From the NCBI GenBank assembly GCA_010365215.1, contig JAAFGT010000013.1, forward strand, positions 16,928 to 80,927: a stretch of DNA of 64,000 nt, written 5' to 3'. The stretch is from Acidipila sp. GTDB lineage: Bacteria; Acidobacteriota; Terriglobia; Acidiferrales; UBA7541. Numbering within the stretch: position 1 is the stretch's first letter; the number at the start of each line of letters is the position of its first letter. A program made the position numbers and the translations under genes. This document shows positions 1 to 13,540 of this stretch, piece by piece. The notes below the pieces were generated by a model. It was not told the DNA's origin. It did not search any database and saw nothing but the letters and a program-made list of their open reading frames with translations.

Positions 1-937
1 GCTTGCGGGCGAATACGGGAAGAATCGTGGAAACGATTCCCATGGCCGGCAGAATGGCGATGTAAACCTCGGGGTGCCCGAAGAACCAGAAGAAGTGCTG
101 CCAGAGCAGCGCTGAGCCGCCGGAATGAGGTTGCAAGCGGTCGCTGATAACCAGGCCCCCGGGAATAAAGAAGCTTGTGCCGGCGACGTGGTCGAGTATC
201 AGCAAAATGCAGGCGGGCAGCAAGACCGAGAAGGCGAGCAAGCCGATGACGGAAGTGACGAACCAGGCCCACGAGGCGATGGGCATGCGCGCCAGGGTCA
301 TGCCTTTGGTGCGCAGGTCCAGCGTGGTGGTAATGAAATTCATGGAGCCGAGCAGTTGCCCCACGCAAAAAATGGCGATGGCGAATATCCACAGCACCTG
401 CCCGAGCGCCAGGCCGGGACCGGCGTCGCCGCCCACGGCGCTAAGCGGCGCGTAGGCGGTCCATCCGGAGATGGGCGGGCCGTCGGAGACGAAGTAGGAA
501 GCCATTAGCACCATGAAAGCCACGAACGTCACCCAGAAGGACATCATGTTCATTTTGGGGAAGGCCATGTCTTCCGCGCCGATTTGAATGGGAAGGAAAA
601 AGTTTCCGAAACCCGCGAACGGAGCATTCGTCAAGACGAAGAAGACCATGATGGTGCCGTGCATGGTCATCAGCGAAAGATACAGCTCCGGAGTGATAAC
701 GCCGCCGGGAGCGCCACTGGTAGCTACTTTCGCCAGGCCGGGAATGGCCAGCGCCGGCCAGGCCAGATGGATGCGCATCAGCCAGGAGAGCACCATTCCA
801 GTGACTACGGCGACGAGCGCCAGGCCGTAATATTGCCGGCCGATTACCTTGTGGTCGAGGCTGAAGACGTATTTGCGAATGAAACCCTGGGGCGGAGCGT
901 GCTGGTGAACCGCAGGTTGGACGGATAAATCACTCAT
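1..937 (-). CDS. coxA: Cytochrome c oxidase subunit I (3' part outside window)
   Basis: Catalytic subunit of a haem-copper oxidase in the inner membrane, reducing O2 at a haem/CuB centre and pumping protons. The first 312 residues are visible and the rest runs off the window start. His93 in the segment MTMHGTIM is the expected low-spin haem ligand. The segment FFGHPEVY (His288, Glu290, Tyr292) carries the CuB histidine, the D-channel glutamate and the cross-linked tyrosine, which points to an A1-type enzyme. Several hydrophobic helices lie between. The ATG at 937 is chosen because it opens the conserved N-terminus and follows a GAGGA-like site. It lies 60 bases after coxB on the same strand and is the last visible gene of the operon that starts with the Cyc2-like protein. 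Confidence 0.95.
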
Positions 938-997: not shown

Positions 998-1795
998 CTA
1001 CTGCGACTGGGTCTTCAACCACTGATCGAACTGATCTTGCGGTACCACCTCAAGAAACGCGCGCATGTTGTAGTGACCCAGCCCGCAGAGCTGGGTGCAG
1101 ACGATCTCAAACCTGCCGGTTTTTGTTGCGGTGAAGTGCAGGGGGATCAACATACCGGGGACAATATCCTGCTGAATGCGCAGCTCCGGGACGTAGAAGG
1201 AGTGCGTCACATCCTTGGAATGCATGGTTAATAGGATGGGCTTGTTAACCGGAATGGTCATGGTACCCACTACGATGTCATCGCGCGAGGCGATGTCGTT
1301 GGCGGGATCAAGGCCGTAGGGATTCTGGTTTCCCTCGTTGATTTTATCGGGATGCAGCGTGCCGAATTTGCCGTCGGGTCCGGCATAGCGGAAATAGAAA
1401 GCAAACTGCCCGGTCTGAAGATCAATCACCATGGAGTCGGGATCGGGCGGGGTCATATACACAGAGGCCCAAACCTTGGAGCCGACAAAAGTCATGGCGA
1501 GAACTTCGAGGCCCACCAGCACGACGGCGAAAATCACCATGGGGGTGGCGCCGCCGGGGAAGGTCTTGATCTTGCGCTGGCGGCTGGTGTCGCTCGACTG
1601 CCACACGAACAGGCTTAGAAGCAGTTGCGAGGAAACAAACAGGACGCCTGCAGCGATCATGGTTTCCATTATCTGGCGGTCAATCGATGCGCCGTGAGCG
1701 GAGATGATCTGCGGCAACCACCAGACGCGCATGATGAAAATACCCGTAGAGACCAGGGTGATGACGGTCACGACGGCAGCAAATAATTTGCCCAA
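998..1795 (-). CDS. coxB: Cytochrome c oxidase subunit II with CuA site
   Basis: Receives electrons from a periplasmic carrier at the binuclear CuA centre and passes them to subunit I. It has 265 residues with hydrophobic segments near 5-25 and 45-65 and again near 85-105, then the periplasmic cupredoxin domain. The CuA ligands are visible: His198, Cys233, Cys237, His241 and Met244, in the segment CTQLCGLGHYNM. Gln235 stands where most aa3 oxidases have Glu; Gln is also known at this place in ba3-type subunit II. The start is a TTG at 1795, preferred because GGGGAG lies six bases upstream. The gene sits between the cupredoxin-like gene and coxA. Confidence 0.94.
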   Translation of the reverse strand: MGKLFAAVVTVITLVSTGIFIMRVWWLPQIISAHGASIDRQIMETMIAAGVLFVSSQLLLSLFVWQSSDTSRQRKIKTFPGGATPMVIFAVVLVGLEVLAMTFVGSKVWASVYMTPPDPDSMVIDLQTGQFAFYFRYAGPDGKFGTLHPDKINEGNQNPYGLDPANDIASRDDIVVGTMTIPVNKPILLTMHSKDVTHSFYVPELRIQQDIVPGMLIPLHFTATKTGRFEIVCTQLCGLGHYNMRAFLEVVPQDQFDQWLKTQSQ

Positions 1796-1925: not shown

Positions 1926-2651
1926 TCAGTAAGGAACCGCCTTAAACACGAAATTGGTTCCTTTGGCGTCGGCGCCTGCCACGGTGACGTCCTGGCTTTG
2001 CGTACCGAACTGCTCGTGCCACGCAGTAACCGTGTACTTGCCCGGAGGCAGGTCCTTGATGCTGAACTCTCCATCGTCGTCGCTCACCGCATAGTGAGAG
2101 GTATTTAAGACGATGAAATAGCCGTGCATCCAGGGATGCACGTTGCACTTTACCGGGATGAACTCGGCTTTGGGATACTGCGCGTTCAGCGGTGGCGTGC
2201 CCGGCGGCTGGGACTTATTCCATTCCGGATTCACTTTGGCCAGCGGGTGAATGTTGTGCGACGTGGGATCGTCGTTGATTATCTGGAATGCCTGGCCCAC
2301 CTGCATAGCCAGCACATGGGGAATGTACTGGCATCCCTTCTGGTCAAACTTCAGCGCCTTCGTAGGAGCCGTAGAACCCTGATCACCCGACGAAATGTAA
2401 ATCACCGCGTACTGGATACTGTTGTTCTTTCCGGTGACCACGTTTTCGGTAGTCACTGGAGTGGGGTGCTGCTTTACGCAGGATGGCTCCTTGGACATGT
2501 CGATCGCTTTCATCTTGGGCGGCGTGCCGGTATAGGTGATCTTGCCGCTGATGGAGCCGGAAGCGGGGCGCGGAGGCTGGCCGGCCAAAGCCACCAGCGA
2601 AGCGCCGGCAACCAGAGTCAGCGCAGTCATCGAAATATATTTAGTTCGCAT
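1926..2651 (-). CDS. Secreted cupredoxin-like protein with carboxypeptidase-regulatory-like C-terminus
   Basis: This 241-residue protein has an N-terminal signal peptide (about residues 1-24). A plastocyanin-like region follows with candidate type-1 copper ligands: His132 and His135 (SHNIHPL), Cys169, His172 and Met175 (KCNVHPWMHGYF). Residues about 185-241 form a beta-rich carboxypeptidase-regulatory-like domain (DDDGEFSIKDLPPGKY). It is probably a periplasmic or cell-surface electron carrier or copper protein. Its place between a di-haem cytochrome c and coxB suggests it could feed CuA, but this is inference. The ATG at 2651 has AAGGAG seven bases upstream. Similar proteins are often labelled only as carboxypeptidase-regulatory-like, so the copper role is unproven. 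Confidence 0.8.
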   Translation of the reverse strand: MRTKYISMTALTLVAGASLVALAGQPPRPASGSISGKITYTGTPPKMKAIDMSKEPSCVKQHPTPVTTENVVTGKNNSIQYAVIYISSGDQGSTAPTKALKFDQKGCQYIPHVLAMQVGQAFQIINDDPTSHNIHPLAKVNPEWNKSQPPGTPPLNAQYPKAEFIPVKCNVHPWMHGYFIVLNTSHYAVSDDDGEFSIKDLPPGKYTVTAWHEQFGTQSQDVTVAGADAKGTNFVFKAVPY

Positions 2652-2696: not shown

Positions 2697-3551
2697 TCAC
2701 TGCCCCACTCCGGGCGCCTGTTCGGGCCCGATCGGCTTGAGCTCGTTTCCGTGCGTCGTCACCCAGGCTTTCCATACGGTTGCCTCAGGCGTAACCAAAG
2801 GCTGGAGGGTTCGCAAGAAGTGCACCAGATCCCAGGCGTCGGCGGGCTTAATCACATCGGCAAACGACGGCATCGGTGTGCCGTCAAGGCCGGTCATGAA
2901 AATACGGTAGAGTTCGCGGTTGGTGTTGCCACACTTGAAGCGCGTGCCGGTAGAAAAATTGTAGGGCGGAATCGGCCGGTCTTTGCTGTCGGTAAGCGTC
3001 GCGGCGGAAGGACCATCTCCATGACCTTCGGGCCCATGGCACTTCCAGCATTCCATCTTCTGAAAAAGTTCCCGGCCGTGCAGAACGCTTTCAATGGTGA
3101 CCGGGCTTTCCGCGGGAATCTCCACGGGCGCGCCGGCCTTGTCGGACTTCCACTTGGGAGAAAAGGTCTTAATATAGGCGACCAGGTTCACACGGTCGAC
3201 GACAGTTAGAGGCATCCACGGCGGCATGTTGGTGGTGTCGAAGCCGCGAGTTACCGCGTCGTAGAGATCCTGATCAGTGGGCAAGGTTCCCGTGGGCGTG
3301 GAGCGGCACTTGAATACCGCGGCGGTGAAGTCGCGCGGCTTGGGATCGATCCACGGCGCGTTTTCGCCGTTGCCGTCGCCTGCCGGGCCGTGACACCCGA
3401 TGCAATACCGGCGGTAATTGATCTTGCCTGCTTTGGCGTTGCCGGAATACTTGCCGACGTGCGATTCCTGCGCCGATGCAGCGCCGGCGCAGAGCAATAC
3501 CGCTGCGGCCAATCCCACGCCTGCCCAGCGGTTCCATCTTGTTCCCCTCAT
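2697..3551 (-). CDS. Di-haem c-type cytochrome, periplasmic
   Basis: This 284-residue exported protein has two class I cytochrome c domains. The haem motifs are CIGCH (residues 50-54) and CWKCH (168-172). Likely axial methionines are Met109 (NMPPW) and Met227 (GTPMPSF). A signal peptide with an ASA cleavage context covers about residues 1-27. I chose the ATG at 3551 because AGGAGGG lies just upstream and the signal peptide starts there; an upstream in-frame start at 3608 would overlap the preceding gene. It probably shuttles electrons across the periplasm between the outer-membrane cytochrome encoded 46 bases upstream and the oxidase. In A. ferrooxidans the corresponding position is occupied by the di-haem Cyc1. 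Confidence 0.9.
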   Translation of the reverse strand: MRGTRWNRWAGVGLAAAVLLCAGAASAQESHVGKYSGNAKAGKINYRRYCIGCHGPAGDGNGENAPWIDPKPRDFTAAVFKCRSTPTGTLPTDQDLYDAVTRGFDTTNMPPWMPLTVVDRVNLVAYIKTFSPKWKSDKAGAPVEIPAESPVTIESVLHGRELFQKMECWKCHGPEGHGDGPSAATLTDSKDRPIPPYNFSTGTRFKCGNTNRELYRIFMTGLDGTPMPSFADVIKPADAWDLVHFLRTLQPLVTPEATVWKAWVTTHGNELKPIGPEQAPGVGQ

Positions 3552-3597
3552 GATCCCTCCTGGATGTCGCAGGGAGTAGGAGATGCGTGACGCGAAT

Positions 3598-5010
3598 TTA
3601 GAAATCAAAATCGAAGCCCATGAGAAGACTGCTGTTCCCCTGGTCGAGATTGTTCACCAGCGAAGTCTTGCGCGAGCGCACATAGGAATATTCCTGGTGC
3701 CAGGCCAGACCGGCGCGGCTGAACATGATGGGATACCAGCGGTAGCCCACGGAGAAGGCATCGATGTCGCCGAAATCGGAGGGAACCGTGGTGGTGGTGC
3801 CCGGAAGAACGGTAAAGGCCTGCCGGGACACGCGAATCGCCTCGTAGCGGTTCACCAAAACGAACTGCGGGTTGACGGTAAAGTGAGTTTCGATAAAGCC
3901 GCCGTTCCATGTAGGCGAACGCGAACCCAGTGGCAACGGGGTGTTGGCCGGAGTATTCGTGGCCAGGAAAGCGTTATCCAGCCCGTGCATATACAGCGTG
4001 CTGAAATCGAATTTGCCGAGATACCAGATGCCGTAAGCTCCCACGCGATAGAAAGACCGGTCGCCCCGTCCAGTGCCGGGAATCGCCGCGCCCCCGTCGG
4101 TCAGGAAATAAGTGGGCGAACGGCCTACGTAGGCAAATGCGCCAACCCGCTGGAGGCCCAGCCTTCCAGCCTCGAACGCCTGGCTGCCGTTTAGATAGAG
4201 GTCGTAACTCTGGTTCGTAGGAAGTCCGACGTTGCCGCTGTTACTGCTGAGCACGGACACTGCGTAACGCGTGTAGCTGTTCTTGGAATGGCCCATCAGC
4301 TCGACGCCCAGTTGATTGTCACCGATGCCGCCGAACTGGTTCAAGCTGCTTAATCCCGGGCCACCCACCGGAGTGAAATGGTAGAGCTGGAAGAAGCCGC
4401 CGTTGGCGGTCAGAAAGAGGAAGCGCTTTTCGGAGATGGGAGTATCGAGTTCGTGCTTGCCGAACTTCAAGTTCAGCCAGGATGAGCCGAAGAGATTATC
4501 GAAGCGCACCCAAGCAGATTCAAAATGAAAGGCCCCGGTCGAGTCCGCGGATGGCAGTACCTGAAAGGAGATGTTTTTATACAGGGTGCCCGCGGTCCAG
4601 ATGTCGATGCCGGAGAGGTCGAAGCCGGAGGTGGTAATGTTCTGTTCGATGGAAGTGCCGAGCGGGCCATCGACCTGTTGGCGCTGGTTGTGCTCCAAAT
4701 GCCACTGAGGCGTCATTCTGATGGTGATGGGAAAGTAGGCGTTGTTCTGGAAGATCGGTGAATCGCGGTCGTTCTCGAGCTGGTAGCCATTGTCTTTGAA
4801 TACCTGGCCGAAGTTATTCAGCTTGGGCCAAGCCTCGTGGCAAGCCGAGCACGGCAACCCGTACTTGCGCGCGAAGGCGGGAATGGCTTGAGCCGGCTGG
4901 CTGGTGATGGCCAGCAGGGCGATAGCGATCAGACCCCAAGCGATGCCATTGCGGTTTAGAACCAGGAGTCCAATTGGCGTTCCCGGCGATCTCAACGTGG
5001 AGAAGTGCAT
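3598..5010 (-). CDS. Cyc2-like outer-membrane cytochrome c-porin fusion
   Basis: The 470-residue protein has a signal peptide (about 1-42), then one haem motif CSACH at residues 54-58, then about 390 residues of alternating beta-strand sequence ending in Phe, as expected for an outer-membrane barrel. The segment from Ile43 to Tyr76 (key features: PAFARKYG, then CSACH, then P-L-FG-FK-GY) follows the signature of Cyc2 iron-oxidising cytochromes. In that family the small haem domain is thought to plug a porin and pass electrons from outside the cell to periplasmic carriers. It is the first gene of an operon with a di-haem cytochrome, a cupredoxin-like protein and cox genes. The start at 5010 has GGAGG eight bases upstream. 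The substrate (Fe(II) or other) cannot be told from sequence. Confidence 0.82.
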   Translation of the reverse strand: MHFSTLRSPGTPIGLLVLNRNGIAWGLIAIALLAITSQPAQAIPAFARKYGLPCSACHEAWPKLNNFGQVFKDNGYQLENDRDSPIFQNNAYFPITIRMTPQWHLEHNQRQQVDGPLGTSIEQNITTSGFDLSGIDIWTAGTLYKNISFQVLPSADSTGAFHFESAWVRFDNLFGSSWLNLKFGKHELDTPISEKRFLFLTANGGFFQLYHFTPVGGPGLSSLNQFGGIGDNQLGVELMGHSKNSYTRYAVSVLSSNSGNVGLPTNQSYDLYLNGSQAFEAGRLGLQRVGAFAYVGRSPTYFLTDGGAAIPGTGRGDRSFYRVGAYGIWYLGKFDFSTLYMHGLDNAFLATNTPANTPLPLGSRSPTWNGGFIETHFTVNPQFVLVNRYEAIRVSRQAFTVLPGTTTTVPSDFGDIDAFSVGYRWYPIMFSRAGLAWHQEYSYVRSRKTSLVNNLDQGNSSLLMGFDFDF

Positions 5011-6473: not shown

Positions 6474-6872
6474 CTACTGTTGAGGAGGATGTTTTCCGTT
6501 CGGAGCGATCTGAGGTGAAAGAAGCGCCTCGATGATTCCCACCATGGGGAAGACGTCTGTTTTCGAAACCACCGAGCGAATGCCGACTTCGCGCGCGTGG
6601 CGCTCCAGATCCGGGCTGGCGTGTTGCGTGAACATCACCAGCGGCACGTCTGGCGCAATCGCCGTCATGCGGCGCGCGGTTTCGATGCCGTTGATTCCGG
6701 GCATCTGAAAATCGACGATCACGACATCGGGCTTAAGTTCTTTAAACATTTCGATGGCGGTCAAGCCGTCGGCGGCCTCGCCGCAGATTTCCCATGTAGG
6801 GTTGGCTCGTAAGACGGCGCGTAGTCCGTTGCGGACGAGCTCGCTATCGTCCACGATCAGGATGCGGGTCAT
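6474..6872 (-). CDS. Single-domain response regulator (receiver only)
   Basis: A 132-residue CheY-like receiver with no output domain. The acidic pocket (Asp8, Asp9), phospho-acceptor Asp54 (VIVDFQMPG), the Thr of MFT and the conserved Lys of SVVSKTD are all present, so it should be phosphorylatable. It lies 82 bases after a receiver-histidine kinase gene and downstream of the poly-HAMP hybrid kinase on the same strand. It probably works as a phosphate shuttle, sink or protein-binding output in the same relay. No DNA-binding domain is encoded here. Confidence 0.9.
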   Translation of the reverse strand: MTRILIVDDSELVRNGLRAVLRANPTWEICGEAADGLTAIEMFKELKPDVVIVDFQMPGINGIETARRMTAIAPDVPLVMFTQHASPDLERHAREVGIRSVVSKTDVFPMVGIIEALLSPQIAPNGKHPPQQ

Positions 6873-6954
6873 TCGAAATCCTCCGCGGCTGCGCCAGGTT
6901 GTGCTGGCAGGAGCCGGTGTATTGCGAATTGCACTCCAAGTTCCACAACGGGCA

Positions 6955-8049
6955 TTATCCGCCTTTGCCTGCGCCGTTGAGCGGAAGCGACGCGATTACC
7001 GTAGTGCCCTTATTGCTCGATCGAACTTCGAACGTTCCACCCAGCTCGCGCACGCGCTCGCGCATTCCGCTGAGGCCGACGCCCTGGCTTTTTCCGAGCG
7101 ACATCGAGAGGCGATTCTCCAAAGGAATCCCTTTGCCCTCGTCGCAGACTTCAACGGTGAGCAGGTTCCGGTCGGAAGGGTGAATGGTGATTTTGGCTTT
7201 CTCACTTCCGGAATGCCGGTACACATTCGTCAGGCATTCCTGCACAATTCTAAAAATCGAAATCTCCACATTCGGCGGCAGCCGGCCGAGCTCGGGAGAC
7301 AGGTCCACTTCGACTTGCACTTTGCTGCGGTCGGAAAAGCCATCGGCAAACATTTTGATGGCGGGCATAAGCCCGATTTCGTCAAGCAGAGGCGGATGGA
7401 GCAGATGGGAAATGGTGCGAATCTCCTTGGAAAGCTGCTCCACCAGCCCGGAATTCTGACGAAGTGCATTGGCCGCTTCGGGAGAAATCTTGTCAGCCTC
7501 GCGAATCGCCAAACCGTTATTCATGGAGAGCGCGGCCACGTACTGCCCCACGCTATCGTGCAGGTCGCGGGCGATGCGGCGGCGCTCTTCGTCCTGCGCG
7601 GCGATCAGCCGGGCGGAGAGAGCGTGCAGCTCCTGGTTGAGCGATTCCAACTGGCGAGTCTTGCGATGCAAATCGGCGAACAGGCTCACTTTGGCGCGAA
7701 GCAGCTCAGGAATGATCGGCACGGATATGTAATCGACGGCGCCGCGCTGGTATCCCTTCAGGCGGTCCAGATCCGAGAGGTATACGGCGGAGATAAAGAT
7801 AATGGCGGTCTTCTGAAAGCGCGGATGCTGGCGCATCATATCCGCCAGCTCAAAACCGTCGATCTCGGGCATGCTGACGTCCATCAGTACGACTGCAATA
7901 TCCGTCTTTAGAAGAAAGTCGAGGGCTTCCCTTCCGGTATGAGCCTGGATCAGGTTTTCACCCAGCTCTTCCAGGATGGTTTCGTAGGTGAGCAGCTTGC
8001 CAGGCTGATCATCGACCATCAGGATGTTGACCTTGTGCCGCTCCGTCAT
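6955..8049 (-). CDS. Receiver-histidine kinase (REC-HisKA_3-HATPase)
   Basis: A 364-residue cytosolic protein with an N-terminal receiver (about 8-125, Asp57 acceptor in VVLMDVSMPEIDG), a short coiled coil (about 128-155), a NarL/DegS-type dimerisation domain with His164 in ARDLHDSVGQ, and a HATPase (DEGKGIPL, GVGLSGMRERV) near the C-terminus. There is no membrane segment or sensor domain, so input probably comes by phosphotransfer or protein contact. The receiver lacks the usual switch lysine: GAVDYISVP stands where KP is expected. It lies 75 bases after the poly-HAMP kinase and before a single-domain receiver, forming a likely three-gene unit. Confidence 0.93.
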   Translation of the reverse strand: MTERHKVNILMVDDQPGKLLTYETILEELGENLIQAHTGREALDFLLKTDIAVVLMDVSMPEIDGFELADMMRQHPRFQKTAIIFISAVYLSDLDRLKGYQRGAVDYISVPIIPELLRAKVSLFADLHRKTRQLESLNQELHALSARLIAAQDEERRRIARDLHDSVGQYVAALSMNNGLAIREADKISPEAANALRQNSGLVEQLSKEIRTISHLLHPPLLDEIGLMPAIKMFADGFSDRSKVQVEVDLSPELGRLPPNVEISIFRIVQECLTNVYRHSGSEKAKITIHPSDRNLLTVEVCDEGKGIPLENRLSMSLGKSQGVGLSGMRERVRELGGTFEVRSSNKGTTVIASLPLNGAGKGG

Positions 8050-8124: not shown

Positions 8125-11100
8125 TTATCGGTGCAACCACATGCGCAGTGCCGAGAGGAGCTGTTCCGTGTTAACAGGTTTTGCCAAGTACTCGGAAGCC
8201 CCGGCTTCGAGACACTTTTCGCGATCGCCTTTCATGGCTTTCGCGGTCAAAGCGACGATAGGCAAACGACGGAATAGGGGATTCTGCCGGATGACCTGCA
8301 TGGTTTGGTAGCCGTCCATTTCAGGCATCATGATGTCCATCAGCACGATGGCTGTGTCCGGGGTCGATTCCAGCGTGGCAATGGCTTCGCGTCCGGTGCC
8401 GGCCGTGAGCACGGTCATTCCGCGGCGTTCCAGGACGCTGCTGAGGGCAAAGATGTTCCGCACGTCGTCGTCGACCACCAGCACTTTCTTGCCGATCAGC
8501 GCTTCATCGGAGTGATGTAGACGGTCGAGCATCTGCTGCTTTGCCGGGGGCAGATCCGCGACTACGCGATGAAGAAATAGCGCGGTTTCATCCAGCAACC
8601 TTTCCGGCGACTCGACGCCTTTAACCACTACGCTGCGCGCCAGCATGTGCAGACGCGCGTCCTCATCGGGAGTCAGGTCCTTTCCGGTAAACACAACTAC
8701 CGGCATGTCGGTCAGGGCGGGAATCTCGCGGAAGCGCTCGAGTAGATCGAAGCCGGACATATCCGGCAGCCGCAGATCGAGCACAACGCAATCAAACGGT
8801 TTTTTGGCGATGGCCTCGAGCGCTTCCTTGCCGGTGCCGGCGAGGCAGACCTCAATATCGTCATAGCCGAGAAGCTCGCAGATACTCATCTGCTCGGCAG
8901 GATTGTCTTCCACCACCAGGAGCCGCTTGCGGCGCGGCAAAGAATATTCTTTCATGCGATCAAAGGCCAGATCCAGCACTTCGGAGGTGACCGGCTTGGT
9001 GACGTAAGCGAAGGCCCCGCGCGCCAGGCCGTGCCGGCGGTCCTCGTCGAGGGTCAACATCTGCACGGGAATGTGCCGCGTGGCCGGATTCTGTTTCAAA
9101 TGATTGAGCAGAGTCCAGCCGAGCATGTCCGGCAAAAAGACATCGAGCGAGATGGCGATAGGGTGGAATTCGCTGGTTAACGCCAGGGCCTCTGCGCCAC
9201 GGTCGGCCACGAGGACCTTAAAGCCCTTTTCGTGGGAGAGGTCACGCAACATGCGGGCAAAGTACGGGTCGTCTTCAACGATCAGCAGAATGGCGTCATC
9301 CGGCTGCAAGTTCGCACGATCGTCAGCGACCCGCTCCATCGAGCGGTCCATCGGGGGAGGTGGAGTGGCCGCACGGTTTGAGATAGCGACGACTCTAGTC
9401 TCGATCGGCAATATTCCTGACGACGGACCTACGTAGGTTTGCGGCAGATAAAGCGTGAATGTGCTTCCCTTGCCGGGCACGCTGCGCAATTGAATTTCGC
9501 CGCCGAGCAGGCTGGAGAGTTCGCGGCTGATCGCAAGGCCCAGGCCCGTCCCGCCATATTTGCGGCTGGTGCCTGCGTCGGCTTGCTGGAAAGCCTCGAA
9601 GATGATGCGTTGTTTTTCCGCGGGGATGCCGATGCCGGTATCGGTGACCTCGAAGGCGACCACCGACGCCGCCCCGTTGAGGATGGGATGGTCCTCACTC
9701 CAGCCGCTGGTGGGATTGAACAGAGACAATGTGACGCTGCCGTGGTCGGTAAATTTAAATGCGTTGGAGAGCAGGTTCTTGAGGACCTGCTGCAGGCGCT
9801 TGGAGTCGGTGACCAGGCTGTGGGGAAGACTTGCCTCGGTGTGGATGTTGAAGGTAAGGCGCCGGTTTTCCGCTTCGTGGCGGAACGGGCGAGCAATCAT
9901 ATCCAGAAGGCTGGTGAAGAAGACTTCCTCCGCCTGCACAGACACGGTGCCGGATTCGATCTTCGAGAGGTCGAGAATATCGGTGATGAGATTCAGCAGG
10001 TCGGTGCCGGCACCGTGAATGGTACGGGCGAACTCCACCTGCTTGGCGGTTAAGTTACCGTCGGGGTTGTCGGTCAGCTGCTGGCCCAGAACCAGGATGC
10101 TGTTAAGCGGAGTGCGCAGCTCGTGGGACATGTTGGCCAGGAACTCAGACTTATACCTGGAAGCGAGGGCCACTTCCTTGGCTTTTTCTTCCACCGCGCG
10201 GCGGGCCTGCTCGATTTCCTGGTTCTTGCGCCCGACTTCGACGTTTTGTTCAACAAGCTGCTGAGCTTTTTGCGCGAGCTGCTCGTTGGTAGTCTGCAGC
10301 TCAATCTGCTGCGTCTGCAATTCGGTGGCGAGCTGCTGCGACTGCTTGAGCAGGCCTTCGGTCTGCATCGTGGCGGCAATACTGTTGAGCACGATGCCGA
10401 TGCTGGAGGTCAATTGCTCGAGGAACGCGATGTGGGATGCAGTGAAGACGCCAAGAGAAGCCAATTCGATTACAGCCTTCACGCGATCTTCGAAAAGTAC
10501 CGGCAAGACAATTACGTTTCGCGGAATGGCCTTGAATAAGCCGGAGCTGATGGCCACAGCGTTGGCCGGAACGTCGGTGATCAGCAAGCGGCGTTTCTCC
10601 GCGGCGCACTGCCCGACCAGGCCGTCGCCAACGCGCAGGTGGCGGAGATGGCCGATTTCTCCATCGTCCGCGAACGTGGAAAGCAGCGTGAGATCCGAAG
10701 ATTCTTCCGTCTCCATCTGGTAGATGACGCCTTGCTGTGCATTGACGAGCGGCGCCAACTCGGAAAGCAACATGCGGCCGACGGTGGATAGATCGCGCTG
10801 GCCCTGCAACATTCCAGTAAAACGCGCGAGGTTGGTTTTCAGCCAGTCCTGCTCGTTGTTGCGGTCCGTCGTAAGCCGGAGGTTATCGATCATCGTGTTG
10901 ATGTAATCTTTCAGTTCGGCCACTTCGCCACGCGCTTCCACCTGAATCGAGCGGGTCAGGTCGCCTTTCGTGACAGCAGTGGTCACTTCGGCGATTGCGC
11001 GCACTTGATTGGTTAAGTTGTCGGCGAGAAGATTGACGTTCCCGGTCAAGGCCTTCCAAGTTCCGGCCGCGCCGGGCACGTTCGCCTGGCCGCCGAGTCG

Positions 11101-13059
11101 GCCTTCCACCCCGACCTCACGCGCAACCGTAGTCACCTGATCGGCAAACGTTGCCAGGGTGTCGGTCATGTTGTTAATCGTTTCGGCGAGCGCGGCAACT
11201 TCTCCTTTGGCGTTTACCGTGAGTTTCTTGGTGAGCTCTCCGTTGGCGACGGCAGTGACCACTTTCACGATGCCGCGCACCTGTTCGGTCAGGTTGGCGG
11301 CCATAACGTTGACGTTGTCGGTGAGGTCCTTCCAGGTACCGGCCACGCCGGGCACCTTGGCCTGACCGCCAAGCTTGCCGTCTGTGCCCACTTCGCGAGC
11401 CACGCGAGTGACCTCGGCGGCGAACGCATTGAGCTGATCGACCATGGTATTGATGGTGTTCTTCAGCTCGAGAATTTCTCCCTTCACATCGACGGTAATC
11501 TTGCGGGAGAGGTCGCCTCGCGCGACGGCCGTGGTCACTTCGGCGATGTTGCGTACCTGGCCGGTGAGGTTGCCGGCCATGGAGTTAACCGAGTCGGTAA
11601 GATCTTTCCAGGTGCCCGCGACGCCGGGCACGTTGGCCTGCCCGCCGAGCCTGCCTTCGCTGCCCACCTCGCGCGCCACGCGTGTAACTTCAGCGGCGAA
11701 GGAGCGCAGCTGCTCCACCATGGTATTGAGAGTTTCTTTAAGCTGCAAAATCTCTCCGCGCACATCCGCCGTGATCTTGCGGGAGAGGTCGCCACTGGCA
11801 ATGGCCGTGGCGACTTCAGCGATGTTGCGCACCTGGCCAGTCAAGTTGCTGGCCATGAAGTTCACGTTGTCGGTGAGGTCTTTCCAGGTACCGGCCACGC
11901 CGGGCACCTGCGCCTGCCCGCCCAACTTTCCTTCGGTACCTACTTCGCGAGCCACGCGGGTAACCTCGCCGGCGAACGCATTGAGCTGATCGACCATGGT
12001 ATTGATGGTGTTCTTCAGCTCGAGAATTTCGCCTTTGACGTCGACGGTGATCTTGCGGGAGAGGTCGCCTCGCGCGACGGCCGTGGTCACTTCAGCGATG
12101 TTGCGAACCTGGCCGGTGAGGTTGCCGGCCATGGAGTTAACCGAGTCGGTAAGATCTTTCCAGGTGCCCGCGACGCCAGGCACGTTGGCTTGACCGCCGA
12201 GCCGGCCTTCGGTGCCCACCTCGCGCGCCACGCGTGTAACTTCCGCGGCGAAGGAGCGCAGCTGCTCCACCATCGTATTGAGGGTGTCTTTTAGCTCAAG
12301 GATTTCACCCTTCACGTCGGCGGTGATCTTGCGGGACAGATCGCCTCGCGCTACGGCCGTGGCTACTTCGGCGATGTTGCGCACCTGGCCGGTCAAGTTA
12401 CTGGCCATGAAGTTCACGTTGTCGGTGAGGTCCTTCCACGTGCCGCCCACGCCGGGCACGCGAGCCTGGCCGCCCAACTTACCGTCAGTGCCGACTTCGC
12501 GCGCCACGCGCGTCACTTCAGCTGTGAAAACGCCGAGCTGCTGAATCATGGTGTTGACGATATTGGCGGAGCGGAGGAACTCGCCCTGCAGCGGACGCCC
12601 ATCGACATCGAGCTGAACCGTTTCCTTCAAATTGCCCTTAGCCACTGCGCCGATCGCGCGAGTAACCTCGGTGGTGGGACGAAGGAGATCATCCACGAGA
12701 GTATTAACGGAAACTTCGATCTGCCCCCAAGCCGCTTTAGGTTGGTGAAAACGCATGCGCTCGCGAGTTTTGCCCTCTTTGCCCACTACCTGTCCGAGGC
12801 GCTTCAACTCCTTGGCGATGTCATGGTTTGCGCTGACGATGTCGTTGAAGGTGTCGGCGATCTTCCCTGAGACCCCAGTCCAATTGCCTGGCAGACGAAC
12901 CGAAAAGTCACCGTCACGCATGGTCTGAAGGCTAGCCAGAATCAGGCTGAGCTCACCGGCAGAGATGTTGGCGCGGACGGAGTTGTCGCCGTTGGTCTTG
13001 GGTTTGCTTTTGTGGACTGTGCCAGTGCCCAGCTCAGGGGTTGGGTCGATTCTCTTCAT
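8125..13059 (-). CDS. Poly-HAMP hybrid histidine kinase with three receivers
   Basis: A very large (1644-residue) soluble hybrid kinase. In order: divergent HAMP units (about 30-190), six near-identical 92-residue HAMP/linker repeats (about 195-745, each with LGGQA-VPG-GTWKxLT), a GAF domain (about 760-900), a coiled coil rich in Gln/Glu, HisKA with the phospho-His near 979 ([12 protein letters not shown]), HATPase ([16 protein letters not shown]), then three receivers with acceptors in [18 protein letters not shown] and [12 protein letters not shown]. No signal peptide or membrane helix is seen. This resembles group III (Nik1-like) kinases that respond to osmotic or envelope stress. The ATG at 13059 has AGGAGA upstream. 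The neighbours are a second kinase and two stand-alone receivers. Confidence 0.95.
11041..12444 (-). repeat. Tandem HAMP repeats, exact 276-base period
   Basis: The codons for GTWKDLTD recur at 12421, 12145, 11869, 11593, 11317 and 11041, always 276 bases (92 codons) apart. Alternate copies match best, so the real unit is a 552-base pair of two types. For example, the run starting at 11569 is nearly the same as that starting at 12121, also at synonymous positions. This implies recent duplication or gene conversion inside the coding region. Confidence 0.93.
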
Positions 13060-13540
13060 GCTGATCTCCTGGGAAAATAGACGCAAGGACAGTCGAGGAA
13101 CGAGTGCGGGAACTCGATTCGGCTAAGCGTTTTAGAATCTGTCATTTACTTACCGTCATAGGACGTGTCATGACAAATGGATTTTTCGTAACTACCCAGA
13201 AATGAAAGCAAACATACATACCTATCACTAATACGGCTACGGCGCCCTACAGTGTTTCCTGTATACGGCACCGGAAAATACTTGAGGGTGCCTCGCCGCA
13301 ACCGTCCCCATGTTAAGGCTTGTACCTGATTCACAGTATTGAAGGCGATATTTTGCTCTGGAACAATCGCCCAGTCAACGGTAGGAGTGACGGGACTGTT
13401 CAGGATGCCACCCATCGAGCTACTCTGGGAACTACTTCACTCGAGACGCCAGACTCCGACGCCTCGAATCGCGCCTTATTTTTCATCCAGGTGCCAGGGC
13501 TGAGTTTTTCCCCACAGGAGATGAATCCAGATCTATTGCC
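13060..13540. other. Divergent intergenic region between kinase and receiver genes
   Basis: This region separates the poly-HAMP kinase (minus) from a receiver gene (plus) and should carry both promoters. Open frames here have atypical composition and no domain. A 13-codon frame (13521-13562) overlaps the start of the receiver gene, but its GGAG is too close to the ATG to be convincing. I see no clear -35/-10 pair. Confidence 0.45.

Follow-up and report, generated by a model that had tools for sequence, protein, structure and literature searches.

The window analysed here, a stretch of 64,000 nucleotides of an Acidipila sp. contig, carries at its start most of an operon whose genes follow one another on a single strand in the order cyc2, dihaem cytochrome c, amicyanin-like cupredoxin, coxB, coxA, coxC and coxD (Table 1). 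The ATG of the cyc2-type gene is preceded by GGAGG. With a TTG start, the ORF of the dihaem cytochrome overlaps that of cyc2 by 11 bases, and the next two gaps are 45 and 130 bases long; the ATG at 3551 is the likelier start of the dihaem cytochrome. The part of coxA beyond the window contains a short stretch of N. The source genome contains two further coxA genes, and the operon oxidase is therefore not its sole one. Just past coxD, two proteins with weak bacterial SH3 matches are encoded on the minus strand (L009:12374-14622); 31 of 52 loci have such a pair close to the operon, in many cases in divergent orientation upstream of cyc2.

Table 1. Coordinates of the operon genes and of features within their products (window positions unless stated otherwise).
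Feature	Position	Strand	Basis
Cyc2-type monohaem cytochrome-porin, 470 aa	3598..5010	minus	ORF 5010..3598, ATG start
Signal peptide, residues 1-42 (...QPAQA)	4885..5010	minus	translation by inspection; hydrophobic helix 17-34 in AlphaFold model
Haem segment, residues 43-76 (IPAFARKYGLPCSACHEAWPKLNNFGQVFKDNGY)	4783..4884	minus	Cyc2 consensus; core invariant in 43 homologues
CXXCH	4837-4851	minus	inside haem segment of cyc2-type gene
Predicted outer-membrane beta-barrel, residues 95-469	3604..4728	minus	AlphaFold pLDDT mostly 80-96; Foldseek
Dihaem c-type cytochrome, 303 aa from TTG	2697..3608	minus	Pfam Cytochrome_CBB3 and Cytochrom_C, two stretches each
Amicyanin/plastocyanin-like cupredoxin with CarboxypepD_reg domain	1926..2651	minus	CarboxypepD_reg match, AlphaFold, Foldseek
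Cu ligands H132, C169, H172, M175 (HNIHP...CNVHPWM)	2127-2258	minus	invariant in 40-sequence alignment
coxB, cytochrome c oxidase subunit II, CuA motif CTQLCGLGHYNM intact	998..1795	minus	COX2 and CoxB matches
coxA, N-terminal part, runs past window start	1..937	minus	CtaD_CoxA, E 1.8e-83
coxC	L009 16055..15384 on contig, outside window	same strand	COX III model, E 7.6e-26
coxD	L009 15341..15027 on contig, outside window	same strand	contig read

Keffer et al. (2021; PMC8406198) recognize Cyc2 proteins by the motif AXPXFAR[Q/K][T/Y] just before CXXCH, a PXL motif 4 residues further on, a single haem, a length of 365 residues or more and a barrel of the porin kind. The product of the cyc2-type gene begins with a hydrophobic stretch which, by inspection, has an AXA-type end before IPAFAR, as expected of a signal peptide; this is followed by AIPAFARKYGLPCSACHEAWPKLNNFGQVFKDNGYQL and by a long beta-strand-rich part ending ...GFDFDF. 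AIPAFARKY occupies residues 42-50, CSACH residues 54-58 and PKL residues 62-64, after which comes NNFGQVFKDNGY, so that the consensus reads AIPAFARKY-GLP-CSACH-EAW-PKL. The first motif thus lies immediately before CXXCH (residues 42-58), with five residues between R48 and C54, which agrees with the published spacing of 5 if this is counted from FAR, and P62-K-L64 stands 4 residues after CXXCH, which ends at H58. CXXCH occurs once, indicating one haem site, and the protein is well above the minimal length. Neither Pfam nor NCBIfam has a model that covers it.

Alignment of 43 homologous proteins reveals 43 fully invariant columns over the whole length and a nearly invariant haem segment, in which P44, F46, A47, R48, C54, C57, H58, P62, L64, G68, F71, G75 and Y76 never vary. 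This conservation leads us to reject a chance CXXCH in an ordinary porin. The barrel region likewise contains invariant arginines (R98, R169, R196, R248, R388, R424 and R432). The preliminary description had given the extent and size of the gene exactly (the strand, which it did not give, is minus) and had placed a Cyc2 consensus around CXXCH at residues 43-76; both the published criteria and the invariant core in the homologues agree with this placement.

An AlphaFold model built with the 43 aligned sequences has a mean pLDDT of 82 and a pTM of 0.80. Foldseek places OprP (2o4v, E 3.1e-13) and OprO (4rjx/4rjw) at ranks 1-3 for the barrel, and OprP/OprO are also the matching porins reported for Mariprofundus Cyc2. 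DSSP assigns about 17 strand segments to the model, compared with the 16-stranded porin of the Cyc2 criterion. In this haem-free model, the haem segment, described for the Cyc2 family as a plug at the pore's periplasmic mouth, has a low pLDDT of about 45-50, with values below 50 at residues 35-45 and 54-62. The predicted structure supports an outer-membrane porin barrel similar to OprP/OprO, as had been anticipated from the sequence. Motif, size, signal peptide, modelled barrel and a profile match to other Cyc2-type proteins (see below) all bear out the earlier reading of a single-haem cytochrome-porin fusion, and the assignment to the Cyc2 type by the published recognition features is well supported at the level of sequence.

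The proteins encoded downstream include two candidate electron carriers. Nearly all homologues of the dihaem cytochrome have two CXXCH motifs. Its nearest solved relative is 6h5l_B (E 1.5e-53), further solved relatives are two c552 chains, and no c4 cytochrome is found among its solved relatives at E <0.001. Cytochrome 579 was considered as an identity for this protein and rejected, as the NCBIfam score is far below the cut-off. In the cupredoxin, a short ligand loop of the amicyanin type was seen by eye in the copper motif, and amicyanin (2idq) was later the top solved Foldseek match of the model, which has a pLDDT of 90.5. The CuA motif of coxB is conserved among homologues.

A contig scan yielded 52 loci with homologues of the Cyc2-type protein, nearly all of them in soil and groundwater Acidobacteriota (Terriglobia, Ca. 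Acidiferrum and Ca. Sulfotelmatobacter); the remainder come from two Myxococcales and from one record each under the titles Gemmatimonadetes and Verrucomicrobia. Of 37 genomes sampled from the family of the source genome, 13 have a close homologue, the source genome included, and of 297 genomes sampled across Acidobacteriota, 7 do, which indicates a patchy distribution. The contig titled Verrucomicrobia has a Cyc2-type gene equal to one from an acidobacterial genome in length, start and neighbours (L060:7825-9222 and L020:6233-7630), and was probably misbinned in the public database. The record titled Gemmatimonadetes (L047) has the full operon and is nested in the acidobacterial clade, owing either to transfer or to misbinning.

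For comparison with other Cyc2 proteins, plasmid-borne FARQTG-type homologues from Proteobacteria were used (Caballeronia, Paraburkholderia, Ideonella, an Acidithiobacillus plasmid, Polymorphobacter and Methylocystis). In a single hhalign comparison with these proteins, the probability is 98.6 and E is 5.5e-16, the alignment reaching the haem segment and the first strands only; tblastn to the Caballeronia homologue gives E 5e-6. Both serve as proxies for the family criterion of a match to cluster references by blastp (E <1e-5) or FeGenie HMM. The window's protein shares with the Cyc2/Cyt572 family (PMC8406198) the signal peptide, the AXPXFAR[Q/K][T/Y]-CXXCH-PXL series, the single haem, the size and the OprP/OprO-like barrel, whereas its barrel is barely alignable with those of proteobacterial Cyc2-type proteins, from which its clade stands separate on a long branch.

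A 73-protein tree joins the acidobacterial sequences of the same type as the window's protein, and the one from the Gemmatimonadetes record, in a single clade with 100/100 support. Next to this clade stand the two Myxococcales proteins and two acidobacterial sequences that branch more deeply, and both the FARQTG type and a second acidobacterial type (AIPAFSRKYQTSCTTCH in the source genome) are separate; the deep order is uncertain because of long branches. The suggestion of the preliminary description that the protein might represent a new branch holds in this tree, in which, of the three named clusters, Cluster 1 and 3 reference proteins are represented by the FARQTG-type set as a stand-in. 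The well-supported clade of the window's protein lies far from proteobacterial FARQTG-type Cyc2. In a published similarity network, Acidithiobacillus Cyc2 is grouped with Burkholderiales, Acidiphilium and similar taxa, and acidobacterial homologues are already linked to Leptospirillum Cyt572 (PMC10654088); acidobacterial relatives of Cyc2 are therefore not themselves new.

The second acidobacterial type lies elsewhere in the source genome (L066:4326-13294, contig C15). Its gene is followed by those for a plastocyanin-like protein, an Fe-S flavoprotein oxidoreductase, what by inspection is a cytochrome b, and multihaem cytochromes c. Several related genomes contain the greater part of this cluster as well.

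The arrangement of the operon recurs in about 30 acidobacterial soil and groundwater genomes with 50-65% identity. Where the contig leaves room downstream of cyc2, the dihaem cytochrome is present in 47 of 48 loci, the cupredoxin in 41 of 46 and coxB in 30 of 44; in about eleven loci of the acidobacterial type, the module has no adjoining cox genes despite sufficient room. Mean identity between loci is about 55% for Cyc2 and 57-75% for its partners, which means that the gene order has been kept through much divergence. The distances of six operon proteins are intercorrelated (r 0.42-0.84), with none of 999 permutations reaching values as high, a pattern that shared ancestry alone can also yield. 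In a deeper acidobacterial lineage (L083:3800-10091), cupredoxin, Cyc2-type protein and dihaem cytochrome c are encoded in one run with ccoN and a ccoO-like gene, the latter with three haem motifs, which together represent a cbb3-type oxidase. That the same module can stand beside a different oxygen reductase argues for a role in delivering electrons to oxidases, and its association with both aa3 and cbb3 oxidases suggests a modular unit for electron entry.

This organization resembles the rus operon of Acidithiobacillus (cyc2-cyc1-cup-coxBACD-rus), in that cyc2, a dihaem cytochrome, a cupredoxin, coxB, coxA, coxC and coxD are arranged in this order on one strand. Unlike in that operon, no rusticyanin gene was found after coxD at the acidobacterial locus, the SH3-domain genes lying there instead; the cupredoxin bears a CarboxypepD_reg domain; and whereas the dihaem cytochrome of the rus operon (Cyc1) is of the c4 family, 6h5l_B is the only strong solved relative of the acidobacterial one. 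Since the locus lacks rusticyanin and its cytochrome is not of the c4 family, the operon is not classed as a rus operon. The Leptospirillum Cyt572-Cyt579-cbb3 chain is also similar, since there a monohaem cytochrome-porin feeds a periplasmic cytochrome and an oxygen reductase, and the L083 locus likewise has a cbb3-type oxidase; the Leptospirillum genes are unclustered, however, whereas the acidobacterial ones form an operon. Acidobacterial XoxF3 methanol oxidation clusters (PMC10875860) share cox genes beside a cytochrome c, but no methanol dehydrogenase gene was seen at the operon locus, and the operon is thus not regarded as part of such a cluster.

From the sequences, motifs, predicted folds and the conserved gene order observed here, we infer the donor, the direction of electron flow and the order of the carriers as follows. 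A dissolved reduced metal, most likely Fe(II), would enter the barrel pore and, at the periplasmic mouth of the Cyc2-type porin, hand one electron to its only c-haem. In the periplasm, the dihaem cytochrome c, the amicyanin-like copper protein or both would carry the electron on to CuA of the aa3-type oxidase encoded in the same operon, and this oxidase would reduce O2. The operon would thereby encode a complete chain from an extracellular donor to oxygen, rus-like in organization and with partly different carriers. We give this reading, with dissolved Fe(II) as the most likely donor and O2 as the acceptor, a probability of about 0.6; the evidence for a route leading from outside the cell to O2 is stronger than that for any particular donor. 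No match to RuBisCO was found in the source genome, which is 98% complete. Calvin-cycle autotrophy of the host is rejected on this ground, and the energy gained would supplement growth on organic carbon rather than sustain CO2 fixation by the Calvin cycle.

Several observations count against the proposed chain, namely the low confidence with which the haem segment is modelled, the roughly eleven loci in which the module occurs without cox genes, the patchy distribution and the invariant barrel-region arginines, which would be unexpected if they face a lumen that must attract Fe2+. In addition, Cyc2 homologues are present in bacteria not known as iron oxidizers and in proposed manganese oxidizers (PMC7029218; PMC9040806), which counts against reading Fe(II) as the donor from sequence. 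With the same architecture and electron direction, the donor might instead be Mn(II) or some other reduced metal, humic compounds in reduced form, or a neighbour from which electrons are taken up. In Ca. Manganitrophaceae, Mn(II) oxidation has been proposed as a function of Cyc2 (PMC9040806), and outside the haem segment the window's type is strongly different from its proteobacterial counterparts; within that segment, however, the consensus is that of the Cyc2 family, whose characterized members oxidize Fe(II), and a donor other than Fe(II) seems rather unlikely.

It is improbable that the outer-membrane protein functions in oxidase assembly or in copper/haem traffic, with the cytochrome and the cupredoxin acting in ordinary quinol:cytochrome c reductase respiration and no extracellular donor being involved. 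The occurrence of a copper protein and a copper-containing oxidase in one operon, and the two SH3-domain proteins kept nearby in 31 of the 52 loci, would fit such a role, but a covalent haem motif is conserved throughout, which an assembly porin would not need, and some loci have the module with no cox genes beside it or next to a cbb3-type oxidase. Reduction of an extracellular acceptor such as Fe(III) by the fusion protein is highly improbable: the related cytochrome-porin type beside cytochrome b, multihaem cytochrome and flavoprotein genes in the source genome suggests that direction may vary by type, but with oxygen reductases encoded in the same operon at most loci, electron flow inward to O2 is the simpler reading.

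Few bacteria are as abundant in soil as the Acidobacteria. The proposed inward chain from the Cyc2-type porin to the oxidase raises the prospect that these common soil bacteria use oxygen to respire dissolved iron or some other electron donor outside the cell. Should that donor be Fe(II), soils would host aerobic iron oxidation on a far wider scale than the known iron-oxidizing groups suggest. A broader proposal, which is less likely than not, is that Acidobacteriota possess their own deep Cyc2 branch and an independently assembled rus-like operon, with an amicyanin-like cupredoxin-CarboxypepD_reg protein and a non-c4 dihaem cytochrome, and that soil acidobacteria constitute a large unrecognized group of aerobic Fe(II) oxidizers living mainly on organic carbon. 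A literature search outside bioRxiv preprints and most subscription journals found no paper on an acidobacterial operon joining an outer-membrane cytochrome-porin to a terminal oxidase, which hints that the operon might be newly described here. The operon supplies a ready set of partner genes for testing the role of acidobacterial Cyc2.

Acidobacterial cytochrome-porins of the FARQTG type (L098, L099 and L100) also adjoin cupredoxin-CarboxypepD_reg-like proteins, and in two of these three loci one such protein lies on each side of the cytochrome-porin. Upstream of the operon, the window encodes a smaller kinase and response regulators (6474-8049) and, on the minus strand (8125-13086), a 1653-aa sensor kinase with several receiver domains and many near-identical repeats, which are probably HAMP.
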